The notes below the pieces were generated by a model that was given only the letters and a program-made list of their open reading frames with translations, searched no databases and had not been told where the DNA came from. From Agarophyton chilense (lineage: Eukaryota > Rhodophyta > Florideophyceae > Gracilariales > Gracilariaceae): a DNA stretch of 64,000 nt. The stretch spans positions 434,001 to 498,000 of the forward strand of contig JARGXX010000077.1 in assembly GCA_030374765.1 (NCBI GenBank), in the 5' to 3' direction. Shown here in pieces: positions 23,639-46,990 of this stretch (position 1 is its first letter; the number at the start of each line of letters is the position of its first letter). The position numbers and the translations under genes are program-made.

Positions 23639-23660
23639 TTAACCCTTTTGACCCCAGAAG

Positions 23661-23686
23661 CTTAACGCTACTATAATAGAGTTAAG
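23661..23686. repeat. 26-bp terminal palindrome, element 1 left end
   Basis: An imperfect 26-bp hairpin (arms CTTAACGC/AGAGTTAAG around TACTATAATAG), 18 bp inside the left TTAA. The same 26-bp design recurs at 23750-23775, 27902-27927, 27972-27997, 31737-31762 and 31837-31862. Confidence 0.9.
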
Positions 23687-23749
23687 GTATGAATATGATT
23701 GGGTGACGACGGGAACATTTGGTTGTCAGCCTGCCAAGTGTTTACCTTG

Positions 23750-23775
23750 CTTATATCTAGTATAATAGCGTTAAG
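23750..23775. repeat. 26-bp subterminal palindrome, element 1
   Basis: A second copy of the 26-bp palindrome, 89 bp further in from the first at the transposase-start end. Candidate second transposase-binding site. Confidence 0.85.
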
Positions 23776-24039
23776 CTTTTCGGTTCCTCGCTGGTTGTCA
23801 CATGAATTTGCGCTGCGTAGAGCCAATGAGAACAGTTGTTATGAGGCGCTGTCTCTTCGATGTCAAACGTCATTCCACCTCAGTGCACAGGAGTGCCACA
23901 TACAATGCGTACCAAACTGCGTGTTATGCTACTAGCTGCTTTGAGGAACAATATCCACTTTATGCAAAACCACAGGCATCCGCCAAACAATGTGGCCTAA
24001 CTTGTTGTCTTGCTACGTCCACATACCGTATACACAAGC

Positions 24040-26073
24040 ATGACAAATGCTCCTTCTCAGACTGCCATCACCCACAAAGAAGATAATGTTCACGTTCCTC
24101 ACAATGCAGCCGATGGTGCTTTTGAAAGAGAAGGGGAGCTCTACTGGGACACAGTAGATGACGAGAAGTTTTTGGTAATTGCTCTAGGAGCCGCTGAAAA
24201 GAAAACATTGTACGAAACGGTTCCATACTGTGCAAGATGGCGAGAACGCAGTGGGCTCTATTTGGCTAAATCGCAACTTATGAGGCGCGCCTACTCTCAC
24301 AGACAGGAACTGGGCTTGTTTAGTTTGTTTTTGAACTCTTCATATCGAAAGTGCGTTCGAGATTGGACAAGCAGGGAGCTTCTCAAACGTGGGCGGAGAA
24401 TCAAGCCGCTCAGAATGGACGAACTGCATGCTTATCTGGGCCTTGAGCTGGCGACTTCACTGCACCGTCTGAATCATCTTCGAGACTACTGGTGTAATTC
24501 AGATCTTAGAGGGATTCTTTTCTTCAAGAAGATTATGGAACGCGATACTTTCATGAGCATTCGAGCAGCTCTTCGATTGTATGCTTGCTACACTCCTGAT
24601 TTCGCACTTGCTGACCCTCTATGGCACAGTCGGCAGCTTCTCGAGCATTTTGTGAGAAACGCTGCCACCCTGGCGATTCCTGTTGGGGTCAGCTCGCTCG
24701 ACGAAAACACAATCCGTTGTAAGGGACGTACCGCAGCCCGTTCCTACATGAAGTCAAAACCAGTCAAGTTCGGCATAAGGTTTTACGCTGTTGTTGGTTG
24801 GTCACACGCTTACCTCCACAACCTGCAGGACAATGGTTCTGGAAACAAATCTGGTCAGACGCCAGTACAGAGGTACACAAATGTTTTTCGAAACCTTCGC
24901 GGGGCTGTGGAGCGTAAGGTGGATGGCACCTTGTTGCCGAAGTCTAAACCATCTGCTTTGTGGTGCGCACAGATGGCGCACCAAATCCAGTTGCACCCCA
25001 CGCCAGAACATGGCTGGTTGATGGTCATGGACAACTTCTACACACGCCTCGTTCTGGCCCGCCAGTTGGATCGTCTTAGTGATGAAGAATGCAGGGTGCT
25101 CAGTACTGTGCGGTTCAATACTGTCGATGGTGCTAACAGATCAGCCCTGAAGGAGGCTATTGACAGCCTCAAACATGCCCAACGCGGAGAATGGCGCTTA
25201 GTACAGGTGTTCCACAAAGGCGAAGATCCGAAAACTCCCCTTCTATTGGCAAAGAAGGCGGGTTTTGTCGTGTTCAAGGACCGCTCTGTTGTGTCGTTTT
25301 ACACCAACGACTTGCCAGACACACCAACTTCCCGCATCCATACCCCCGATGAGCACGCTGTCAATTGCGTGCACGGACTCGCGCCTTTGCAACGATGGAT
25401 CGGTAAGGAATCAGTGCGACGCACAACACTGCAAGTGCCTTCAATCATTGTAGCTTATAACTTATTTATGAATGCAGTGGATCGCTTCGATCAATTTCGT
25501 TCTACCTTCGCAACTGTTCGGAAAGAGAGGCGGGTGTCCATGAGTCTACTCACTTTCGTTCTCGACGCGAGCATAATAAATGCTCATGCCCTTCTCAACG
25601 CCATCACAAAGCTGGGGGACACCATTATCGATGTTGGTCTCATGAAGCAACGGATAATCCAGCAGCTGGTAGCGGACCACCTCGAATACCAGCAGATACG
25701 AGCGTCGCTTTCCAACATTTCTCCAACGAGCAGCGATGATCGGCGTGCTGCGGTAGGCAGTACAGCGGCAGAAGCAATTCACATGTTGTTTGAGACGGAG
25801 GGGAAGAAGAGCGTCCGGTGTCTTTTGTGCAATGTCCTTTCAGCAACTACGAGTGGCCGGTACACGACGTACTCCTGCAATGTATGCAAACGGGGATTCC
25901 ATGTCAACTGCTTCGCATTCTATCACCACAAAAACGTCTTTCGCCACTCTCGTCCTGACATACACAACGCCGTAATATCGGCGGAAGCATTGCTATCATC
26001 CAAGTCTCATCGGAATAGGCGCAACAAAGTAACAGCAAACCTCACCACTGTCAAAGTATTGTACAAGAAATAA
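24040..26073 (+). CDS. piggyBac-like transposase (DDE_Tnp_1_7), intact
   Basis: A 677-residue protein from the ATG at 24040; the longer frame begins at a TTG, and the second element also starts MTN. The DDD catalytic core is visible. The first Asp lies in SLDENTIRCKGR (codon 24700-24702), the second in VMDNFYTR (25030-25032) and the third in NAVDRFDQF (25480-25482). All are in the contexts seen in piggyBac transposases. The C-terminus has a Cys/His cluster (CLLCN, then CNVCKRGFHVNCF and HH) matching the family's terminal zinc-binding domain that recognises the ends. The end KVTANLTTVKVLYKK is conserved in element 2. No frameshift or stop interrupts the gene. The stop codon sits 2 bp from the stop of the opposing accessory gene. 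Confidence 0.93.
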   Translation: MTNAPSQTAITHKEDNVHVPHNAADGAFEREGELYWDTVDDEKFLVIALGAAEKKTLYETVPYCARWRERSGLYLAKSQLMRRAYSHRQELGLFSLFLNSSYRKCVRDWTSRELLKRGRRIKPLRMDELHAYLGLELATSLHRLNHLRDYWCNSDLRGILFFKKIMERDTFMSIRAALRLYACYTPDFALADPLWHSRQLLEHFVRNAATLAIPVGVSSLDENTIRCKGRTAARSYMKSKPVKFGIRFYAVVGWSHAYLHNLQDNGSGNKSGQTPVQRYTNVFRNLRGAVERKVDGTLLPKSKPSALWCAQMAHQIQLHPTPEHGWLMVMDNFYTRLVLARQLDRLSDEECRVLSTVRFNTVDGANRSALKEAIDSLKHAQRGEWRLVQVFHKGEDPKTPLLLAKKAGFVVFKDRSVVSFYTNDLPDTPTSRIHTPDEHAVNCVHGLAPLQRWIGKESVRRTTLQVPSIIVAYNLFMNAVDRFDQFRSTFATVRKERRVSMSLLTFVLDASIINAHALLNAITKLGDTIIDVGLMKQRIIQQLVADHLEYQQIRASLSNISPTSSDDRRAAVGSTAAEAIHMLFETEGKKSVRCLLCNVLSATTSGRYTTYSCNVCKRGFHVNCFAFYHHKNVFRHSRPDIHNAVISAEALLSSKSHRNRRNKVTANLTTVKVLYKK

Positions 26074-26075
26074 AC

Positions 26076-26618
26076 CTATTCCTCTTTGAATCCCATGTAC
26101 GCCCCAGCTCCATTCGGCCAGATCTTTCGAATTCCTTCTAACGCGCAACGCGGTATCTGAACCCTTCTATACTTTCCAAGAACTCCATGGCGCTCGTACG
26201 TAAAGACCTTGTATGCTGTCTTCCGGGCTTCGTTGTTACGTGCAGTACATACACCCATGTCAGGGTACTCTGTTGCTGTCCTTTCTACAACCGTGGGTCC
26301 AAACTGCATCCAATAACAGGGGGTGCCCCCACACGTCTGACAAGCAACGTCTTCGTTATGTGCTGTGACGACCGGGATGTCGATCGGAACACTGTTTGTA
26401 GCAACCAATTCATTAGCGTAGTCGCCTGTCGTGAGCAGCCCATGACAGCCCTGTTTTCGTTCGTCTGGAAGTCCCACAGTATCGCCAGATCTCTTCTGCG
26501 CGGCCGTCCTCCTTCTCTGTGTGATTGTAAAGTTTTCGTTAGGGGAGGTCATTTGGTTTACGTGTGCAACATTTTGTTGACGAAATTCACGCGGTTCACC
26601 TCTGTTGTCTTCTTGCAT
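26076..26618 (-). CDS. Accessory protein of piggyBac element 1, new family
   Basis: A 180-residue protein from the ATG at 26616-26618, on the strand opposite the transposase and converging on it with 2 bp between stop codons. The N-terminal half is Gln/Asn/Arg-rich and probably disordered. The C-terminal half is compact and conserved with a homologue in element 2. It contains CGGTPCYWMQFGP, then TEYPDMGV, ARNNEARKTAYKVFTYER, RCALEGIRKIWP and a GAYMGFKEE end. Invariant Cys, Trp, Tyr, Arg and Pro residues suggest a real fold. I recognise no known domain. The conserved position within two diverged elements implies selection for a transposon function such as DNA binding, end recognition or regulation, but this is inference. 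Confidence 0.82.
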   Translation of the reverse strand: MQEDNRGEPREFRQQNVAHVNQMTSPNENFTITQRRRTAAQKRSGDTVGLPDERKQGCHGLLTTGDYANELVATNSVPIDIPVVTAHNEDVACQTCGGTPCYWMQFGPTVVERTATEYPDMGVCTARNNEARKTAYKVFTYERHGVLGKYRRVQIPRCALEGIRKIWPNGAGAYMGFKEE

Positions 26619-27901
26619 CAAGCTCGTTATTGTACGACTGACAAGCAGCAATGGCAAAGACAGTGAGAATATAGAAGACCTTCAGAGCCTCCAACGGCGC
26701 AATGATGGAATCAATAGGCGCAACAGCGGCCGGCACAACCCCCGCGACGCCTCAACAAACTGTCGAGGTCGCGCAGTGGCGCTGGAAATCGACCGATCCA
26801 AAGCGTGGCAGCCCGACGAAGAATGGAGCAACGACGGCGCCGGGCTGCGTGAAAGGTGGCTAGAACGCGGGGACGCCCGAGGAGGCCAGAGAACAAGGCA
26901 GTGGAAAAAGGAAGGAGGGCAAGGGTTTGCAAGAAATCTTGTCTGCGAGACGGTGTGGGAAGGCAACAGAGTAGGGCTGTGTGAGGTGGCAAGAAGGCAG
27001 GATGGCGACGGGATGGAAGAGAGAGGCAAGGAGAGCGAAAAGACGTCCGGCGAGGCAGCAGGGCGAACAGACGAAAGAAGGCGGGATAGCAAAGGTACGT
27101 ACCCGCGATGCGGCGCAAGCAGGCAAGTTAGCGAACCTATGCGAGTCGGCGGCAATGCAAGACCACAGGAAAACGCGGTGATGCGGTAGAGTGGCGTTTG
27201 GAGCCAGCTAGGGGCGCAGCGTTGCGAAAGCGTGGGGGCCGAAACGCGTGGCGGAGCAAATAAGATAGAGGTTGGGGAAGCGCGAAGGTGGTGCTGAGTG
27301 AGAGGTAAAGAGGGTGAGGCGGTGGAAGTGTGCGGGGGTGTCAAGAGGCATTCAGACGCGGCGAAGAGAGAACGCAAGGAGTCGAGAGGGAAGAACGCAG
27401 AAGGGCGCGTCAGTGCCGTAGAGTTGTGATGAAAAGTAAATGTGAGGTGGAGTGGTGTGTGGGCGTGATGGTGGACGAGCGCGGTGGTGCAACGACGATC
27501 AAAAGCGTGGAAGCGCTGAGGTGGGGGGAGCAGGAAGTCAACAGGGGAGGGTGGGGCAAGTGTACGACAGCGCAAAGAAACACTCAGTCGTGCCAAGGAT
27601 GGGAGAGAGTACGTGAAGAAGCAAAATGCTGCGGGTTGGTAGAAGGGAGGGTGTTTGTGGTGCACTGAAAAGGCTTGGGGCAGCGGTTTGGCTTGACCCT
27701 TGTCAGTCAGACCGATGCCACCGCCGGCCGCTGCATTTATTTGCACCGTGGAGGACGCAGTAGCAGCAGGTGGCCAGTACTGCGCCACTTCAAGCACTGC
27801 ACCTTATGTGTGATGACTTGCACATCTGCTGCACATTGTGCATTTCACAAAAGTTGATTGAAACGCAAAACGAACAAGCGTACTATTCTAAATGGCTCTC
27901 T
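26619..27901. other. Purine-rich filler of element 1
   Basis: About 1.3 kb between the accessory gene start and the right palindrome. From about 26.7 to 27.7 kb the plus strand is G/A-rich. This leaves a 371-codon minus-strand frame (26682-27797) starting at a GTG, of low complexity (Pro, Ser, Leu, Arg) and without a domain. It could be a leader or promoter region for the accessory gene, or captured host DNA. No support for coding. Confidence 0.5.
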
Positions 27902-27927
27902 CTTATCTCTATTATAGTAGGGATAAG
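27902..27927. repeat. 26-bp palindrome, element 1 right end
   Basis: A 26-bp imperfect hairpin (CTTATCTC...GGATAAG), 20 bp inside the shared TTAA at 27948-27951. Confidence 0.88.
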
Positions 27928-27971
27928 AGTTTTCAGGTTCAAAAGGGTTAACCCTTTTGAACAGGGAAAAA

Positions 27972-27997
27972 CTCATGTCTACAATAGTAGACATAAG
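27972..27997. repeat. 26-bp palindrome, element 2 left (3') end
   Basis: A 26-bp hairpin (CTCATGTCTAC...GTAGACATAAG), 20 bp from the shared TTAA, as at the right end of element 1. Confidence 0.88.
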
Positions 27998-28090
27998 AGA
28001 AAGCCAATCAAAATTGGACGCTTGTGTCTGAGCGTGTCAATAAACCGTACGACTGCGCGTTATAGAAAAGTCTCCACAGTTGCCGTCTCC

Positions 28091-28092
<2 letters not shown>

Positions 28093-28144
<52 letters not shown>
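28093..28144. repeat. (CT)26 microsatellite
   Basis: A perfect dinucleotide run of 26 CT units inside element 2, with short impure CT runs following. Likely length-polymorphic. Confidence 0.97.
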
Positions 28145-28148
<4 letters not shown>

Positions 28149-28902
28149 CTCTCTCGTTCCACCTCAACGCTACACTCTCGTCCCACTTTGTTGTGAAAGC
28201 ACCTACGCCTCCGCAGCGCCACAATACGTCACCCGTTACATCGTATTTTCTTAAAAAAACTCAGGCGATTTGTTGCTTCAGGTCTTGATCCTTACATAAC
28301 TGTATTTTTTCTGACTTTTTCGACTTTTGCTAAAGTGCTAGTTATATTATCGGCTCCTATCGCTCCCAATCTTTGGGATTGAAGGTTTTTTCCGTTAGGT
28401 GCATCGTACTGGTGGCAATCACTTTGGCGTTTCCGTGCTGCACGAATAGCATACTTGTATCTATCGGTACTATATGATACGAGCGCCAACAACTACTTTT
28501 GTTATGGCACAATTTAGTGAATGCTTGTTCTGCTCTATTGAAGGTACACATTTTGCTTTCCGTGCAGGTTTCTTCTTGGGTAACAAGATGAGGTCATTGC
28601 TTGGTTGTTGTAGTTTTGGTTGGGCTTAGAAGGTTTGTGTCTCGTCGTGAGTTGTTGTTTTAGTATGACAGCAACTAAGTAAGCTGTCTTACTCTCGGTA
28701 GGTTTTCTTTTTAATGGCTGCAACGAACGCTCTTTCTGTTATATCTGTTTTTGTTCTAACAAGACATAGTGTGTGTGATTCTGTTCTTTATTGTGGTTAT
28801 TGTTGGAATTGAGTGGTGAGAAAAAGGCATGTTGGTTAAGGAAGTGAAGAAGGCAAAGCGAAACTACCCTGGTTGTTTCAAAATAAAGCGCAAATCGATC
28901 AG

Positions 28903-29388
28903 ATGATCAGAAACACACAATTCGACAGCGACTGTCATGAAACCCATACAAACGGCACTTCTAATGCCAGTCAGACGGAATCATGTGATATGTTACCGAG
29001 TCAGAAAGATTATGATCGTAAAAAGTCAGTCGGTGCAGTTACAGTTGCCGATGACGAAGCTGAGTTGTCTATAAACAACATTGAGATACGAATCATTACA
29101 CCGTTCATTGAAGATGTCTTGTGCGTACAATATGGCGAGACAATCTGTTATTGGATTCAATTAGGGCCCTTTTTGCTGTTCATAGTGACAACTGAGTTCC
29201 CTGAGACAGGAATATATCTTTCCAGAAACAATGATGCGAGAAAACTTTTTTATAAATCCTATACTTTCGAACGTTATGGATTTGTCAGCAAGGGCAACAG
29301 GATTCAGCTTCCGAATTGCGCGCCAGAAGCAATCCGCTAGATCTGGCCGGACAGGGTTGGCTCGTACACGGGATATAAGCAGCAATAA
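28903..29388 (+). pseudogene. Accessory gene of piggyBac element 2, one nonsense codon
   Basis: Homologue of the element 1 accessory protein. It starts at the ATG at 28903 and matches the conserved C-terminal half: GETICYWIQLGP, TEFPETGI, SRNNDARKLFYKSYTFERYG, NCAPEAIR. A TAG at 29338-29340 stands where element 1 has Lys in IRKIWP. The frame then continues through IWPDRVGSYTGYKQQ to a TAA at 29386-29388. Two bases separate that stop from the transposase stop (29391-29393, minus), the same spacing as in element 1. The N-terminal half is diverged. Apart from the one stop the frame is open, so this gene decayed less than its transposase. Confidence 0.85.
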
Positions 29389-29390
29389 CT

Positions 29391-31432
29391 TTATTTTTTG
29401 TGCAATACTTTGGCGGTTGCAGTATTGGCTGTCACACGGTTAGACCGTTTGCGACTAAAATTTGACGCTAAAGCTAGCTCCGCAGACACATCTGCATTGT
29501 ACAAATCAAGACGTGTTCTGTGGAAGATATCCTTTTAGTGGCAGAAGGAAAAACAGTTGACATGAAACCCAAGTTTGCATTCACTACATGAAGAGGTGGT
29601 GTAGCCTCCGCGGCCTTTTTTGTCGAAAGAACCCGGCAGAGAACGCAGTGAACGCTCTTCTTGTGTTTTGTTTGGAGCAAGATGTGTATGAGGTTGGTTG
29701 TTCGGTCTGCATCTTGTCAACGGTTGCAGAGTTCACTGGTTCCAGATATAACAGTTAGTGTGGCCCTTCGATGCTTGTGCTCAATATGTTCACTAACCAG
29801 TTGCATTATAACCCGATTCTTCAGTGTCCCTATATCGATTATAGCCTGTTCTAGAGAGCTTATAGACTTGAGAAGGGCATGTCCATTTGGAATACTGGCG
29901 TCCAAAACAAAAGTGAGGATACTCATCGGTACTCGCTGCTTTTTCCTAACCGTGGCCATTCTTGGCCTAAACTGGTCAAATCGGTCCACCCCGTTCATGA
30001 ACAAGTTATAAGCAACTATTATCGAAGGAACTTGCATTGTGGTCTTCTGCACTGACTCTAAGCCTGTCCACAGTTGCAACGGGGTAAGTCCATGGACGCA
30101 CATTACGGCGTGCTCGTCGCCGTTGTGTATGCGCTGATTTGGGGTATCCGCCAAGTCATTCGAATACAAGGACACAACTTAGCGGTCCTTGAACACAATG
30201 AATCCCGCCTTCTGTGCCACCGTGTCAGATGATGCCGTTCCGTTGCCTTTTTCATACACCTGCACTAGACGCCAATCTCCTCTTACAGAGTGCTCGAGAC
30301 TCTCGATTGCCTCTTTCAACGCAGGACGATTGACACCGTCGACTTTGTTAAACCGAACTGTTCCAACAACGTTACACTCTCCGTCGCTCAGCACATGCAG
30401 TTGACGAGCAAGAACATGCCGTGTATAAAAATTGTCCATAACCATCAAGCGTCTTTCATTCCCAGTGGGATGTAATTGCTTTTGATGCGCCATTTGGACG
30501 CACAATAAAGCAGAAGCCGTAGACTTTTTAATAATTGTTCCATCAACTTTTCGTTCTACTGCACCACGTAAGTTTCGAAACACATTTGTGTATCGTTGAA
30601 CTGGCGTCAGTCCAGTTTTGTACCCAGAGCCGTTGTCCTGAAAACTATGCAGATACGCATGGGACTAGCCTACGACTGCATAAAACCTTATCCCAAACTT
30701 TGCTGGTTTAGCCTTCATGTAAGTCCTCGCGGAAGTTCGGCCCTTGTATCTGACAGTGTTTTCATCTAAGCAGCTCACACCCACGGGAACAGGCAAGGAA
30801 GCTGCATTCCTCCCCAAATGCTCCAAAATCGGACGACTATGCCACAATGCATCCAAAACGGCAACGTTCGGGTCATACGTAGCATACGTTCGTAACGCTG
30901 CACGAATGTTTAGAAAATTATCTCTCTCCATGGTCTTCTTGAAAAATTCATTTCCTAGTAGCTCTGATGTACACCAATAATCACGAAGGTGATTTAGTGG
31001 GTGGAGCAAAGTGGCCAACTCGAGACCAAAGTATGCTTGTAGTTCATCCATTCGCATTGCTTTTAAAATTTTCCCCCGTCGTAGTAGTTCCTTACTTGTC
31101 CAACATCTGACAAATTCAAGGTAGGAGCTGTTCAGAAGCAGATTGAACAAGCCTAGCTCTTTTTTGTGTGCGTAAGCACGCTTTATAAGCTGCGGCTTTC
31201 CTAGAAAGAGTCTTCTTTGCTGGCGCCAATTTGCACAATATGACACGGTGTGATAGACATTTGGTTCTTCATAGGCTCCTAGTGCAGACACTTCAAATTC
31301 TTTATCATCAAGTTCCTCATCAACAGGTGGGCCTACAATCTCAGTGTTACATTCATGAGCATGAAATTGACGTTGCAAGTCGTCATCTCTGCTTGAACTT
31401 GTGATTTGCGCTATTGGAGTTTGGTTTGTCAT
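29391..31432 (-). pseudogene. Decayed piggyBac-like transposase of element 2
   Basis: Starts at the ATG at 31430-31432 (MTNQTPIAQ) and can be followed along the whole length of the element 1 protein to a homologous end (KVLHKK, stop 29391-29393). In-frame stops interrupt it. A TAG replaces the Trp after FYAVVG (near 30665), a TAA replaces Ser after VFKDR (30179-30181) and a TGA is at 29717-29719. Near 29600-29625 an A/T homopolymer hosts a frameshift, and a TAA follows the zinc-binding motif near 29535. All three catalytic Asp contexts survive (CLDENTV, VMDNFYT, GVDRFDQF). Non-functional, but it shows long purifying selection before decay. Confidence 0.9.
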
Positions 31433-31736
31433 TCAAAAGGGTGACGAACTGCATTTTCAGGTTTTGCCAAAATGATTCGAAAGTGGCCACCCTCTTTGTC
31501 CATAATGGTGCTGTTTGCAAAGCGGGCATAGCGGGAGAGGTTGCAGGAAGCATCATAAACTCAATATTCTGCGCAGGCGGTAGGAGAAATGACTTGAGCG
31601 CATACTTGGATTTCGTGGGAAAACTACGTGGGGCCGCCCATGACGCCTATGTTTCCTACCAAGAACTTTCCACTACTGGTTTACCTATTGGGTCAAATCA
31701 GCATTTATTTTAAAAACAGCAAATTCCATTGCCTTA

Positions 31737-31762
31737 CTTATGTCTACGATAATAGATAGAAG
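31737..31762. repeat. 26-bp subterminal palindrome, element 2
   Basis: A degenerate copy (CTTATGTCTACGATAATAG...GAAG), 100 bp in from the terminal one at 31837-31862. Mirrors the 23750-23775 copy of element 1. Confidence 0.78.
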
Positions 31763-31836
31763 TGAAATTAACACTTGGAACACTGACAACCAACTGTTGC
31801 CGATGGTGAAAAGCCTCTGTCCAATCATATACCCAG

Positions 31837-31862
31837 CTTATGTTTACTACTGTAGACATAAG
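31837..31862. repeat. 26-bp terminal palindrome, element 2 right (5') end
   Basis: A 26-bp hairpin (CTTATGTTTAC...GTAGACATAAG), 18 bp inside the TTAA at 31881-31884, on the transposase-start side. Confidence 0.88.
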
Positions 31863-31884
31863 CTTTTAGGTCCAAAAGGGTTAA

Positions 31885-32649: not shown

Positions 32650-34330
32650 TCATTGTGTGATATCAAACTCGTTTAACTTTCGTTTCTGTCTCGCAGCTTT
32701 GTGCAGCCCATTTTGCAGGTACAACTTATAAAAACAGAAACCACGGAAATCGAGACTCTGTGTTTCGTGCGACTTAGGTGCCGGGAGAGCAATAACAATG
32801 ACTTTTTTATCCTGGAATAGATTCAATGATTTGTATCTAACGTGAGCGCTGTAGCCGTCAAGGAGAATAAGTAGTAGCTGGTTGTTATTTTGAAGATCTC
32901 TCGATTCTTCTAGGAAATCTTGCACCCATTTGAAGACGATATCCGTATCAACACCAGGTGAATTGCGATGAAAAAGATAACATGGAGGTAGGACTCTATG
33001 CAAAGACTGGATTTCTTTTCATACTTTACGGTATTGAGAAAGCTCCCCGGGAAACAAAAGTTCCAGTTTGTATGCAACATCGTTTGCCGACACGACAGAA
33101 ATTACTGTAGTTTTTTCGAGCTGCCCCTCGTGGTGAGCAGTTTCTGCAGAACGCGCGCGCTGGCGGTACCAATGCCCTTTCGCAAGCTGCCTTTCATATT
33201 TTGAAACGAAGCACCAGACTGATCCGTATCGAATAAACGCATGGATTCTTGGATGTTAAACCTTCTCATTGCAGCCTCGACTCTTGCAATATACTCAGTA
33301 AGGTTCTCCGGGGTAACAGCGTTAACAAGTTTGTCCTTCATCATATTTATATTCTGTACTCGTAAATCATTTCGGTGAAGAAAGTTCCCAAACCCAACTG
33401 TGTGATGGACGGTTTTCAACGAAACCAATTTTCGCTTGCGTCTCTTCTGAAACCCCGGACACGTACTCCTGAAATAGATATCGCAATCCTTGTTTAGTTG
33501 GCGGAGTTGTAGTATTCTACTATGTCGGGGAATCCGATAGGCTGGTTTTTCGCGAAGTCGCGGTTGGAACTCATAAGTGAGTGATATCATCAGCATTGTG
33601 ATATGAAACGGCATCCCGCATAGGATGCCTAGAGGCAGAATGTCTTAGTGGAACACGTGGCGTCATGGGTCGAGTGGCTTACCACGGCGCGCGCATAGTT
33701 GCGACCCTTGCTAGGGGAATGCCATATTGGCAACGGCGCATGTAGTGGCGATCCACGTGGAGGGCTTTACTACCCTTTGTAGTTAGACGTCCATTAGGGA
33801 CCATACCCATACAGTGGTTTGGCTATGTGGCTGACGACTGGGTATTATTTACGTATTTATTTGGGCACTCACCCTGGTACACAGTATATAGTGTACCAGA
33901 GGTGAGCGCCGACTCCAAGTAAAGGAGACAACATGGGCATCATGACAATTCTGTTCCTCGCTTAGGATTCCCTAACCGGAGATCCGGACGAGCCATAATA
34001 GATAGTCAGCCCCCAACCACTTCACGAGCCGTCTCGTACCTACGTCACATCAACTTTTTACAGTTGCACTAATCACCCTCGCTGGCGAGTAGTGGCCTTG
34101 CACCCCACTTCCAGCTCGCTGGTGTTGTAGCTCTACCACCCCTCTTCCTTCGCCGCAAGCAATCCATCGGCAGTCCGAACGCTGTCATAGGTGTCTGCTC
34201 TCTCCGTTAGAGCGGATACTACAGGAGTATTGTTTTCAGCATAGTAAAGAACGCTCTCGGCAATAGTATTCTCTTAACCATGCGCTAATGTGGTTGGTCT
34301 CCAGTTGCGGCTTAAATCCAAATGGATTTC
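32650..34330 (-). pseudogene. pogo/Jerky-type (DDE_1) transposase relic, split by a solo LTR
   Basis: Reading on the minus strand, the part right of the LTR (down from about 34330) and the part left of it (33507 to 32650) form one transposase. When the LTR plus one 5-bp duplication is ignored, the frame crosses the gap coherently (VLYYAENNTPPTKQGLRYLF). Downstream motifs are FVENRPSHSWVW, then RLFDTDQSGASFQ (first catalytic Asp). Next come LLILLDGYSAH (second) and LPAPKSHETQSLD (third), the usual DDE_1 order of pogo/Tigger/Jerky transposases. Frameshifts and stops show that it is dead. The inverted repeats of the element were not located. Confidence 0.8.
33508..34223. repeat. Solo LTR (TGTAGT...ACTACA family) with GGAGT target duplication
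   Basis: A 716-bp unit beginning TGTAGTATTCTA and ending ACTACA (6-bp inverted ends). It is flanked on both sides by GGAGT (33503-33507 and 34224-34228). A diverged copy lies at 53074-53724 in the same orientation, sharing blocks such as GCTCGCTGGTGTTGTAGCTCTA and CTTCGCCGCAAGCA. No internal retrotransposon sequence adjoins it, so it is a solo LTR left by recombination inside the pogo-like transposase. Confidence 0.87.
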
Positions 34331-45469: not shown

Positions 45470-46990
45470 TTGACACTCCGTCCGTACCTCGAGGGAACCA
45501 GGTTTACCATTAAGACAGACCATTACTCACTCCGCTGGCTACTCAATATGACCGATGCACCAAGTCGCCTCGCTCGGTGGCGCCTCAGGCTTTCAGAATA
45601 TGACTACGAGATAACCTATACGCCAGGCATCAAGCACCAGGCAGCAGCTGCCCTCTCGCGAATCATTACCGACGAAACTGACGACAATCCATTGGCCGAC
45701 CTAATTCCTACTCCCTTCGCAGATGATAGACCTCAGGATAATACGGAAACGGATTACTTTATGGGTAAGGTCGAAGTGGATAACCCTGAGGTAAAGAAGA
45801 ATGAAGTCTACTTATTGGACAAAGAGACAGTACCACCCAATTCGACACCACCTCAAGTTAATGCAATAACCACAGAGGAAAAATTGCTCCTGCCTATAAC
45901 TATTGAGGAGCTCCTAAAGACGCAGGTCGAAGACGAGTACTGCAAGGAAACGGCCCAATTGGTAGAAACCCCTGCATATCTATTCGACTATAACCGATCT
46001 GGTTTACTGTGCCGCCGCTCAGCGCTGGATGGCGCACTCCAACGGGTAATACAAAGTTCACTAAGGGCGCGATTTCTATACCTCGCCCCTTTCTTTCGCT
46101 TGGCTGGGCACCCTGAAGGCCGACAAGTGTACCAAACCCTGAGGAAGTTCTTCTACTGTCCACAGATGGCGCAGGACGTATGGCAAACCGCACAGAACTG
46201 TAAACAGAACTGTACATCGTGCGCACAAATCCGAGGGTCTCGCACCAACCATCAGTCCAAATTAAAGCTCTTCCCCGCCCCAGGTCCGATGGAATTTGTC
46301 GCAGTGGATATACTTGGGCCTTTGCGTAAGTCGTCCCATGGAAAACGATTTGTCTTGGTCATAACCTATAGAATAACCAAACTTACCCGAGTCCTACCCC
46401 TAGGGAAGACAACAGCCACAGATGTCGCCACGGTCTTATTGTCCCACCGGGTATATCCATACGGCATTCCACTCTACCTCCTTACATATAACGGCAGCCA
46501 GTTTGTATCCAAATTCTTCTCACACGAGTGTGCTACCTTAGGTATCAAACATATGCCCACCACGGCGTACCACCCGCAGGCTAATGGCCAAGCCGAACGC
46601 TTCAAACCTACCCTTCTGGACCGATTATCGCTTTACGTATCGGAGCATCAATTGAACTGGTACGACTACGTTGAACCACTGATTTATGCCTACTACATGC
46701 GGGTGCACACTTCGATGGGGACAACACCTTTCGGTTTAACGCTAACGAGGTTGCCACCGCCGATAGCTGTTGACCTTCCGGAGTCTATCATACCCCAAGA
46801 CATAAGCGAAGGGAAGATTCCTACCCAGGTGAAGCGCTACTCGCGCCGACTTATCGACCGCATTATCCAGTCGGTCAGAGATGTACTAACCAAAGCGCAA
46901 CGGCGCTACAAGGTCAATTTCGACAAAGCCGTTTGGAACACACCGACCTTTGGAAAAGGAGAACTTTTTTACCTGGACCGGCCACCATAG
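45470..46990 (+). pseudogene. Gypsy RNase H end and integrase, catalytic Asp replaced
   Basis: An open frame of 506 codons. RNase H: TDHYSLRWLLNMTDAPSRLARW and the EITYTPGIKHQAAAALSR block. Integrase: a zinc-binding HHCC-like region (CKQNCTSC), then FVAVDILGPL (first Asp). LLTYNGSQFV follows, where the expected Asp of TDNGSQF is Tyr, and then YHPQANGQAERF (Glu). The loss of the second catalytic Asp makes it inactive although the frame is open. It starts at a TTG because the polyprotein is broken upstream. Confidence 0.88.

Follow-up and report, generated by a model that had tools for sequence, protein, structure and literature searches.

A piggyBac transposon lineage with a facing KolX-like accessory gene in the red alga Agarophyton chilense

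Results

Two abutting elements with convergent genes

The window, i.e. the whole stretch of 64,000 nucleotides analyzed here, is part of contig 77 of the 79.8 Mb assembly of Agarophyton chilense. Two piggyBac-type transposons are located in it, element A (23639-27951) and element B (27948-31884). Each contains a transposase gene and an accessory gene that face each other, the pair in B being decayed (Table 1). The elements are oppositely oriented, abut accessory end to accessory end and have one TTAA in common. This exact abutment at 27948-27951 looks as if one element had inserted into the neighbouring target-site copy of the other.

By sequence inspection, TTAA target-site copies flank A and B at both ends. 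Inside them, the termini read 5'-CCC...GGG-3', and CCCTTTTG opens both elements. A near-palindrome of 26 bp lies approximately 20 bp inward of each end, in A and B alike, and a second similar repeat copy is found ~90-100 bp deeper, on the transposase side. The same subterminal arrangement is present in the diverged copy L054 and, partly, in L053.

Table 1. Features of elements A and B; positions refer to the window
Feature	Position	Strand	Basis
TTAA target-site copy, left, of A	23639..23642	.	sequence
Left terminal inverted repeat of A, start (CCCTTTTGA)	23643..23651	.	sequence
Subterminal near-palindrome, 26 bp, A transposase end	23661..23686	.	
Subterminal repeat, second copy, less palindromic, A transposase end	23750..23775	.	
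Transposase of A, piggyBac-type, PF13843 and C-terminal Cys-rich region	24010..26073	+	open frame; first in-frame ATG 24040
Accessory of A (180 aa), KolX/P2X7-ballast-like in its C-terminal part (PF20478)	26076..26618	-	
Pyrimidine-rich leader, upstream of A accessory	26619..27901	-	
Subterminal near-palindrome, A accessory end	27902..27927	.	
TTAA common to A and B	27948..27951	.	sequence
Subterminal near-palindrome, B accessory end	27972..27997	.	
Decayed frame of the B accessory, with TAG at 29338-29340	28903..29388	+	
Transposase of B, decayed, with a frame change and in-frame stops	29391..31432	-	stop codon 29391-29393
Subterminal repeat, inner copy, B transposase end	31737..31762	.	
Subterminal near-palindrome, outer copy, B transposase end	31837..31862	.	
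TTAA target-site copy, right, of B	31881..31884	.	sequence

One part of the leader (26700-27850) has matches in the ten A copies only, and one of these copies lacks a piece of it. The leader harbors an open stretch of 371 codons (26682-27797, minus strand), longer than those of all but two of 2000 single-base shuffles. We rejected this stretch as a third gene: no ATG follows its GTG, and it is interrupted in three of the ten copies (L010, L011, L018).

Elsewhere in the window, frames at 32650-33614 (minus strand) resemble, by eye, a pogo/Tc1-like DDE transposase in decay, and an open frame at 45470-46990 (plus strand) resembles, again by eye, the RNase H-integrase portion of a retrotransposon of the Gypsy type. 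In the assembly as a whole, six contigs other than C39, megabase-size ones among them, bear matches to the phycobilisome linker PF00427, in keeping with a red-algal genome. C39 itself has seven such matches, six of which make two identical sets of three ~186 kb apart; it is possibly a doubled plastid contig or bears a duplicated gene cluster.

The transposase

In the Pfam scan, the A transposase matches PF13843 (DDE_Tnp_1_7) over residues 80-504 of the translation (E 4.3e-34). Residues D231, D341, D491 and D494, which we take to be the catalytic aspartates of piggyBac (DDD/D), are invariant among 13 aligned transposases. The C-terminal Cys-rich region contains C604, C607, C623, C626, C634 and H639, each kept in at least 90% of the aligned transposases and putatively coordinating zinc. 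Judged by PF13843, TTAA, the invariant aspartates and the Cys-rich C-terminus, A and B belong to the piggyBac superfamily. The terminus rule given for Kolobok elements, 5'-RR and YY-3' (PMC9587614), is violated by the ends of both A and B.

Within this genome, the piggyBac series ranges from ten near-identical copies down to relatives of less than 40% identity. Outside it, 57 relatives of the transposase were recovered among 7996 scored candidates; most of them are nameless and the named ones come chiefly from Phytophthora. Scans with the transposase alignment outside this genome returned zero loci. A second, distinct PF13843 group (L001-L008) is present in the same genome. Its PF13843 scores exceed those of the A type, and BLAST finds no match between its members and the transposase of A.

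The accessory protein

The initial annotation recognized no known domain in the accessory product. This view has to be abandoned, as PF20478 (P2RX7_C, the "ballast" domain of P2X7) matches the A accessory with E 6.2e-6 and 26.7 bits, above the Pfam cut-off of 23.5. No Pfam match was obtained for the truncated product of B. PF20478 is recovered at E <= 1 in 14 of the 18 aligned members, including four A copies, and 15 of the 25 genome matches listed for this domain exceed the curated cut-off. When a profile of the 18 accessory sequences from this genome is compared with the PDB, P2X7 chains constitute the four best matches (best E 1.6e-4), aligned over P2X7 residues 539-593; with a profile built from the full-length accessory alignment, the best P2X7 match has E 0.008.

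The likeness to Pfam and PDB entries is confined to the last ~53 residues of the accessory. Within its last 25 residues, the distances that separate C, IR, P, Y and G of PRCALEGIRKIWPNGAGAYMG agree with motif 3, which PMC7016195 gives for the Zn domain of ballast as PSC(C/S)x3IRx2(F/Y)Px5Y(S/T)G. Four cysteines are widely kept in the alignment rows, namely C93 (12/13), C96 (12/13), C101 (11/14) and C158 (17/18). Of the Zn-coordinating cysteines known from ballast, seven to eight in number (motifs 1 and 2), most are lacking in the accessory alignment. No P2X channel domain is contained in the 180-aa A product, for which Pfam reports only P2RX7_C and a sub-threshold DUF4716. The C-terminal domain is mildly basic, with pI 8.3 in A and 5.7-9.8 across 15 members, some of them partial. 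Because the AlphaFold models are poor (mean pLDDT 36.7 and 42.6), the accessory fold is deduced from sequence only.

The frame of the B accessory includes an in-frame TAG at 29338-29340, overlooked in the initial annotation, and the product read up to this codon would have 145 aa. All six sequence blocks quoted as shared by the two accessory proteins are indeed present in A and B; the IWP block of B lies after a stop.

Comparison by hand revealed that all 25 PF20478 genome matches listed are accessory places; at its sensitivity, the PF20478 search gave no sign of an additional gene for Kolobok KolX or a host ballast protein. Beyond this genome, no relative of the accessory scored among 20 and 630 word-sharing candidates of the protein collection, nor in viral contigs or prokaryote genome contigs. 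These searches covered few eukaryotes or needed shared words, and absence from them says little.

Linkage of the two genes

With the A accessory as a query, the whole-genome search finds the B accessory with E 9.4e-31, and their resemblance is therefore beyond chance. The genome contains at least 53 accessory matches, corresponding to 46 places once split hits were joined by hand. A transposase adjoins the accessory at 41 of these 46 places (34 by alignment, seven by coordinates), and the two-gene piggyBac lineage with a convergent accessory, as proposed initially, is thus borne out. Flanking DNA was examined at 36 loci, including L034 and L037, which look like near-duplicates. A convergent transposase was found at 34 of them, all 34 linked pairs being convergent, and no transposase occurs in the examined flank of L038 and L052. 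Ten further places were judged by coordinates, seven of them beside a transposase match and three without one. All five places lacking a transposase, out of 46, are partial or weak matches; no free-standing full-length accessory was detected among them.

The reverse check yields a similar picture. An accessory match is situated near 27 of the 28 transposase places that retain residue 640 or beyond, the exception being the copy at C4:1004001, with no accessory in 1.6 kb past its end. The lists from genome searches are lower bounds, as only the best candidates were scored (65 of 145 in the case of the transposase). At all eight loci of the L001-L008 group, the accessory is absent within ~1.5 kb of the PF13843 domain (best E 13), so TTAA transposition itself does not necessarily depend on it.

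The convergent stop codons of A are 2 bp apart (26074-26075), and the same gap separates the frame end of B (29388) from the transposase stop (29391-29393). Genome-wide, we measured the spacing from one last sense codon to the other, by extrapolation wherever the alignment ends early; 8 nt then equals 2 bp between the stops, provided that both come directly afterwards. A spacing of 8 nt is observed at 24 of the 34 linked loci, ten of which are near-identical A copies. Three loci have 6-7 nt, five have 15-24 nt, L024 has 1071 nt, and one truncated locus extrapolates to -3 nt. The exact 2-bp spacing noted in the initial annotation thus holds for A and B and fails as a general rule. Its conservation, taken there as suggestive of selection, mostly reflects shared ancestry, and the spacing differs in other clades; it is an inherited geometry rather than a strict rule.

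Mobility and joint descent

The ten A copies, including the one at 23639-27951, share 96-100% identity in the accessory. Their right ends carry an exact GGGTTAA in all ten cases and adjoin nine distinct right-hand flanks, which shows that the accessory is mobilized inside the element, together with the transposase. Two identical A copies, L016 and L017, lie ~40 kb apart on C16 and have the same right-hand flank; they probably arose by a recent local duplication, not by two insertions.

Protein trees of accessory and transposase were compared for 21 elements, decayed or partial ones among them. The trees have 11 of 18 bipartitions in common. The distance matrices correlate with Mantel r 0.85, a value reached by none of 5000 permutations. 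A single ancient gain of the accessory followed by joint descent explains the agreement of both gene trees.

Selection

Nine elements from different subfamilies, the better preserved of the 36 loci, were used for estimation of omega, with in-frame stops masked (three in the accessory, 20 in the transposase). The accessory omega is 0.228, with lnL -1936.3 compared to -2008.9 at omega 1 (delta lnL 72.6). The transposase of the same elements gives omega 0.176, with lnL -9199.9 compared to -9699.7. Selection on the second frame, suggested in the initial annotation, is therefore supported by codon data as purifying selection between subfamilies. The accessory thus seems to have been needed for persistence of the lineage, under constraint close in strength to that on the transposase.

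For nine near-identical A copies (L017 left out as identical to L016, three stops masked in the transposase), the omega estimates of 1.49 (accessory) and 1.10 (transposase) are both indistinguishable from 1. Such a value between intact copies was initially regarded as a possible refutation of the proposal. The value was indeed obtained in the A copies, but it says nothing against the accessory gene and carries no information as a test of function, since the transposase of the same copies behaves alike. Neutral decay of the ordinary kind, setting in once a copy has inserted, would give this picture.

Discussion

We suggest that A and B represent an old red-algal piggyBac lineage, in which a DDE transposase is accompanied by a facing small protein of the KolX type, and that this accessory is an element-made transposition cofactor. 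We assign this reading as a whole a probability of roughly 0.55. The identity part, built on domain similarity, co-mobilization, co-inheritance and purifying selection as read from the sequences, is very probably correct. For the function as a cofactor encoded by the element, which we infer, chances are about even.

In the simplest version, the accessory would be a compact adaptor, probably held by zinc at C93, C96, C101 and C158, with zinc binding itself being presumed. Such an adaptor might bind the transposase or the TTAA-flanked ends and aid assembly or import of the transposition complex. We would place little trust in any particular one of these steps. Two TTAA superfamilies carry a KolX-like protein, which suggests that the accessory has to do with the handling of ends or target or with assembly of the complex. 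A general need for it is disfavoured, since single-gene piggyBac elements exist and the L001-L008 group does without it within ~1.5 kb. As a cofactor, it would have analogues among the second proteins encoded by other DNA transposons, for example the Myb-like one of Harbinger.

We also considered the accessory as a reader of the subterminal palindromes and did not adopt this idea. Its C-terminal domain is merely mildly basic, and in canonical piggyBac such subterminal palindromes are bound by the Cys-rich domain of the transposase.

Instead of a cofactor, the accessory might be a regulator, either a copy-number repressor or an anti-silencing factor acting against host chromatin or RNA silencing, with the tail-to-tail 3' ends adding antisense control. 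The convergence of all 34 linked loci, mostly with few bases between the genes, would suit a regulator, and conservation is expected to look identical. However, Pfam detects no repressor or chromatin domain in the A product, and the pairing reported in two TTAA-using superfamilies (PMC9587614) hints at a role linked to the reaction. Regulation is consequently a conceivable but rather unlikely explanation.

Still less can be said for a passenger, i.e. a functionless gene acquired a single time from the host or from Kolobok and taken along since. The accessory omega among A copies (1.49, not distinguishable from 1) might be taken for such indifference, but the transposase of the same copies is equally neutral (1.10), and the between-subfamily omega of 0.228 (delta lnL 72.6) speaks against it. 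Further, the C-terminal domain is still open in a member of each major clade (A, L019, L021, L023/L025, L027, L042), and the 5/46 lone places are partial or weak matches, none of them a free-standing full-length accessory. We regard a passenger as very improbable. Finally, an antisense or chance frame by the transposase, or a chance likeness of unrelated frames, might be read into the in-frame stop of the B accessory and the poor AlphaFold models, but such an artefact is refuted by 53 genome matches of the accessory alone, the curated Pfam hit, the P2X7 PDB profile match and codon constraint.

Comparison with known systems

Canonical piggyBac consists of a single transposase gene. The red-algal elements resemble it in the TTAA target, CCC... 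ends, PF13843, C-terminal Cys-rich region and subterminal palindromes, and differ from it by the second, convergent gene.

Among TTAA-specific transposons, a second protein is described for Kolobok: according to PMC9587614, KolX is the ballast protein, the second protein of Kol0 elements, and Kolobok uses TTAA. The accessory presented here is like KolX in being the second protein of a TTAA-specific DDE transposon with a ballast-type C-terminal region. Unlike in Kolobok, the transposase belongs to PF13843, the element starts with 5'-CCC instead of obeying 5'-RR and YY-3', and four rather than seven cysteines are widely kept.

The initial annotation implied that the pairing of piggyBac with such a protein is novel. 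This does not hold, as PMC9587614 (2022) mentions in one sentence, in the part accessible, that "a few piggyBac families" encode a KolX-like protein without most of the seven zinc cysteines. Our A/B-type elements may be among those families. To that sentence we add the layout, analysis of copies and the selection test. In the literature on P2X7/P2X and transposons, KolX, piggyBac second proteins, red-algal piggyBac and the ballast domain, PMC9587614 is the one paper recognized, among the matches listed, as connecting ballast/KolX with piggyBac. The pairing was thus already glimpsed there, and the red-algal elements are a well-documented new case of it.

The same work argues that the P2X7 ballast domain is derived from the transposon protein KolX (PMC9587614). 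The accessory shares with P2X7 ballast and Nanor (PF20478; PMC7016195) its last ~53 residues, with (I/L)PxCx4IRx2(W/F)Px5YxG and the preceding RxxAYxxY. It differs from them in having no P2X channel part, unrecognizable Cys motifs 1 and 2, and one possible four-cysteine site. In the eLife study of P2X7 (PMC9859053), the functions of the GTP/GDP and Zn sites of the ballast domain are called unknown, at least in the part accessible.

A bolder reading, to which we give less than even odds, sees in the ballast/KolX module a dedicated cofactor, of ancient origin, for the TTAA transposition of Kolobok and piggyBac, with a red-algal form that is reduced, holds a single zinc and is selected nearly as strongly as the transposase. 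If this is true, then the P2X7 ballast domain descends from a transposition machine, and the red-algal lineage represents a minimal system for testing the biochemical job of this domain. The ordered piggyBac series with its retained accessory makes the role of the ballast protein for a TTAA transposon testable by a simple transposition assay.
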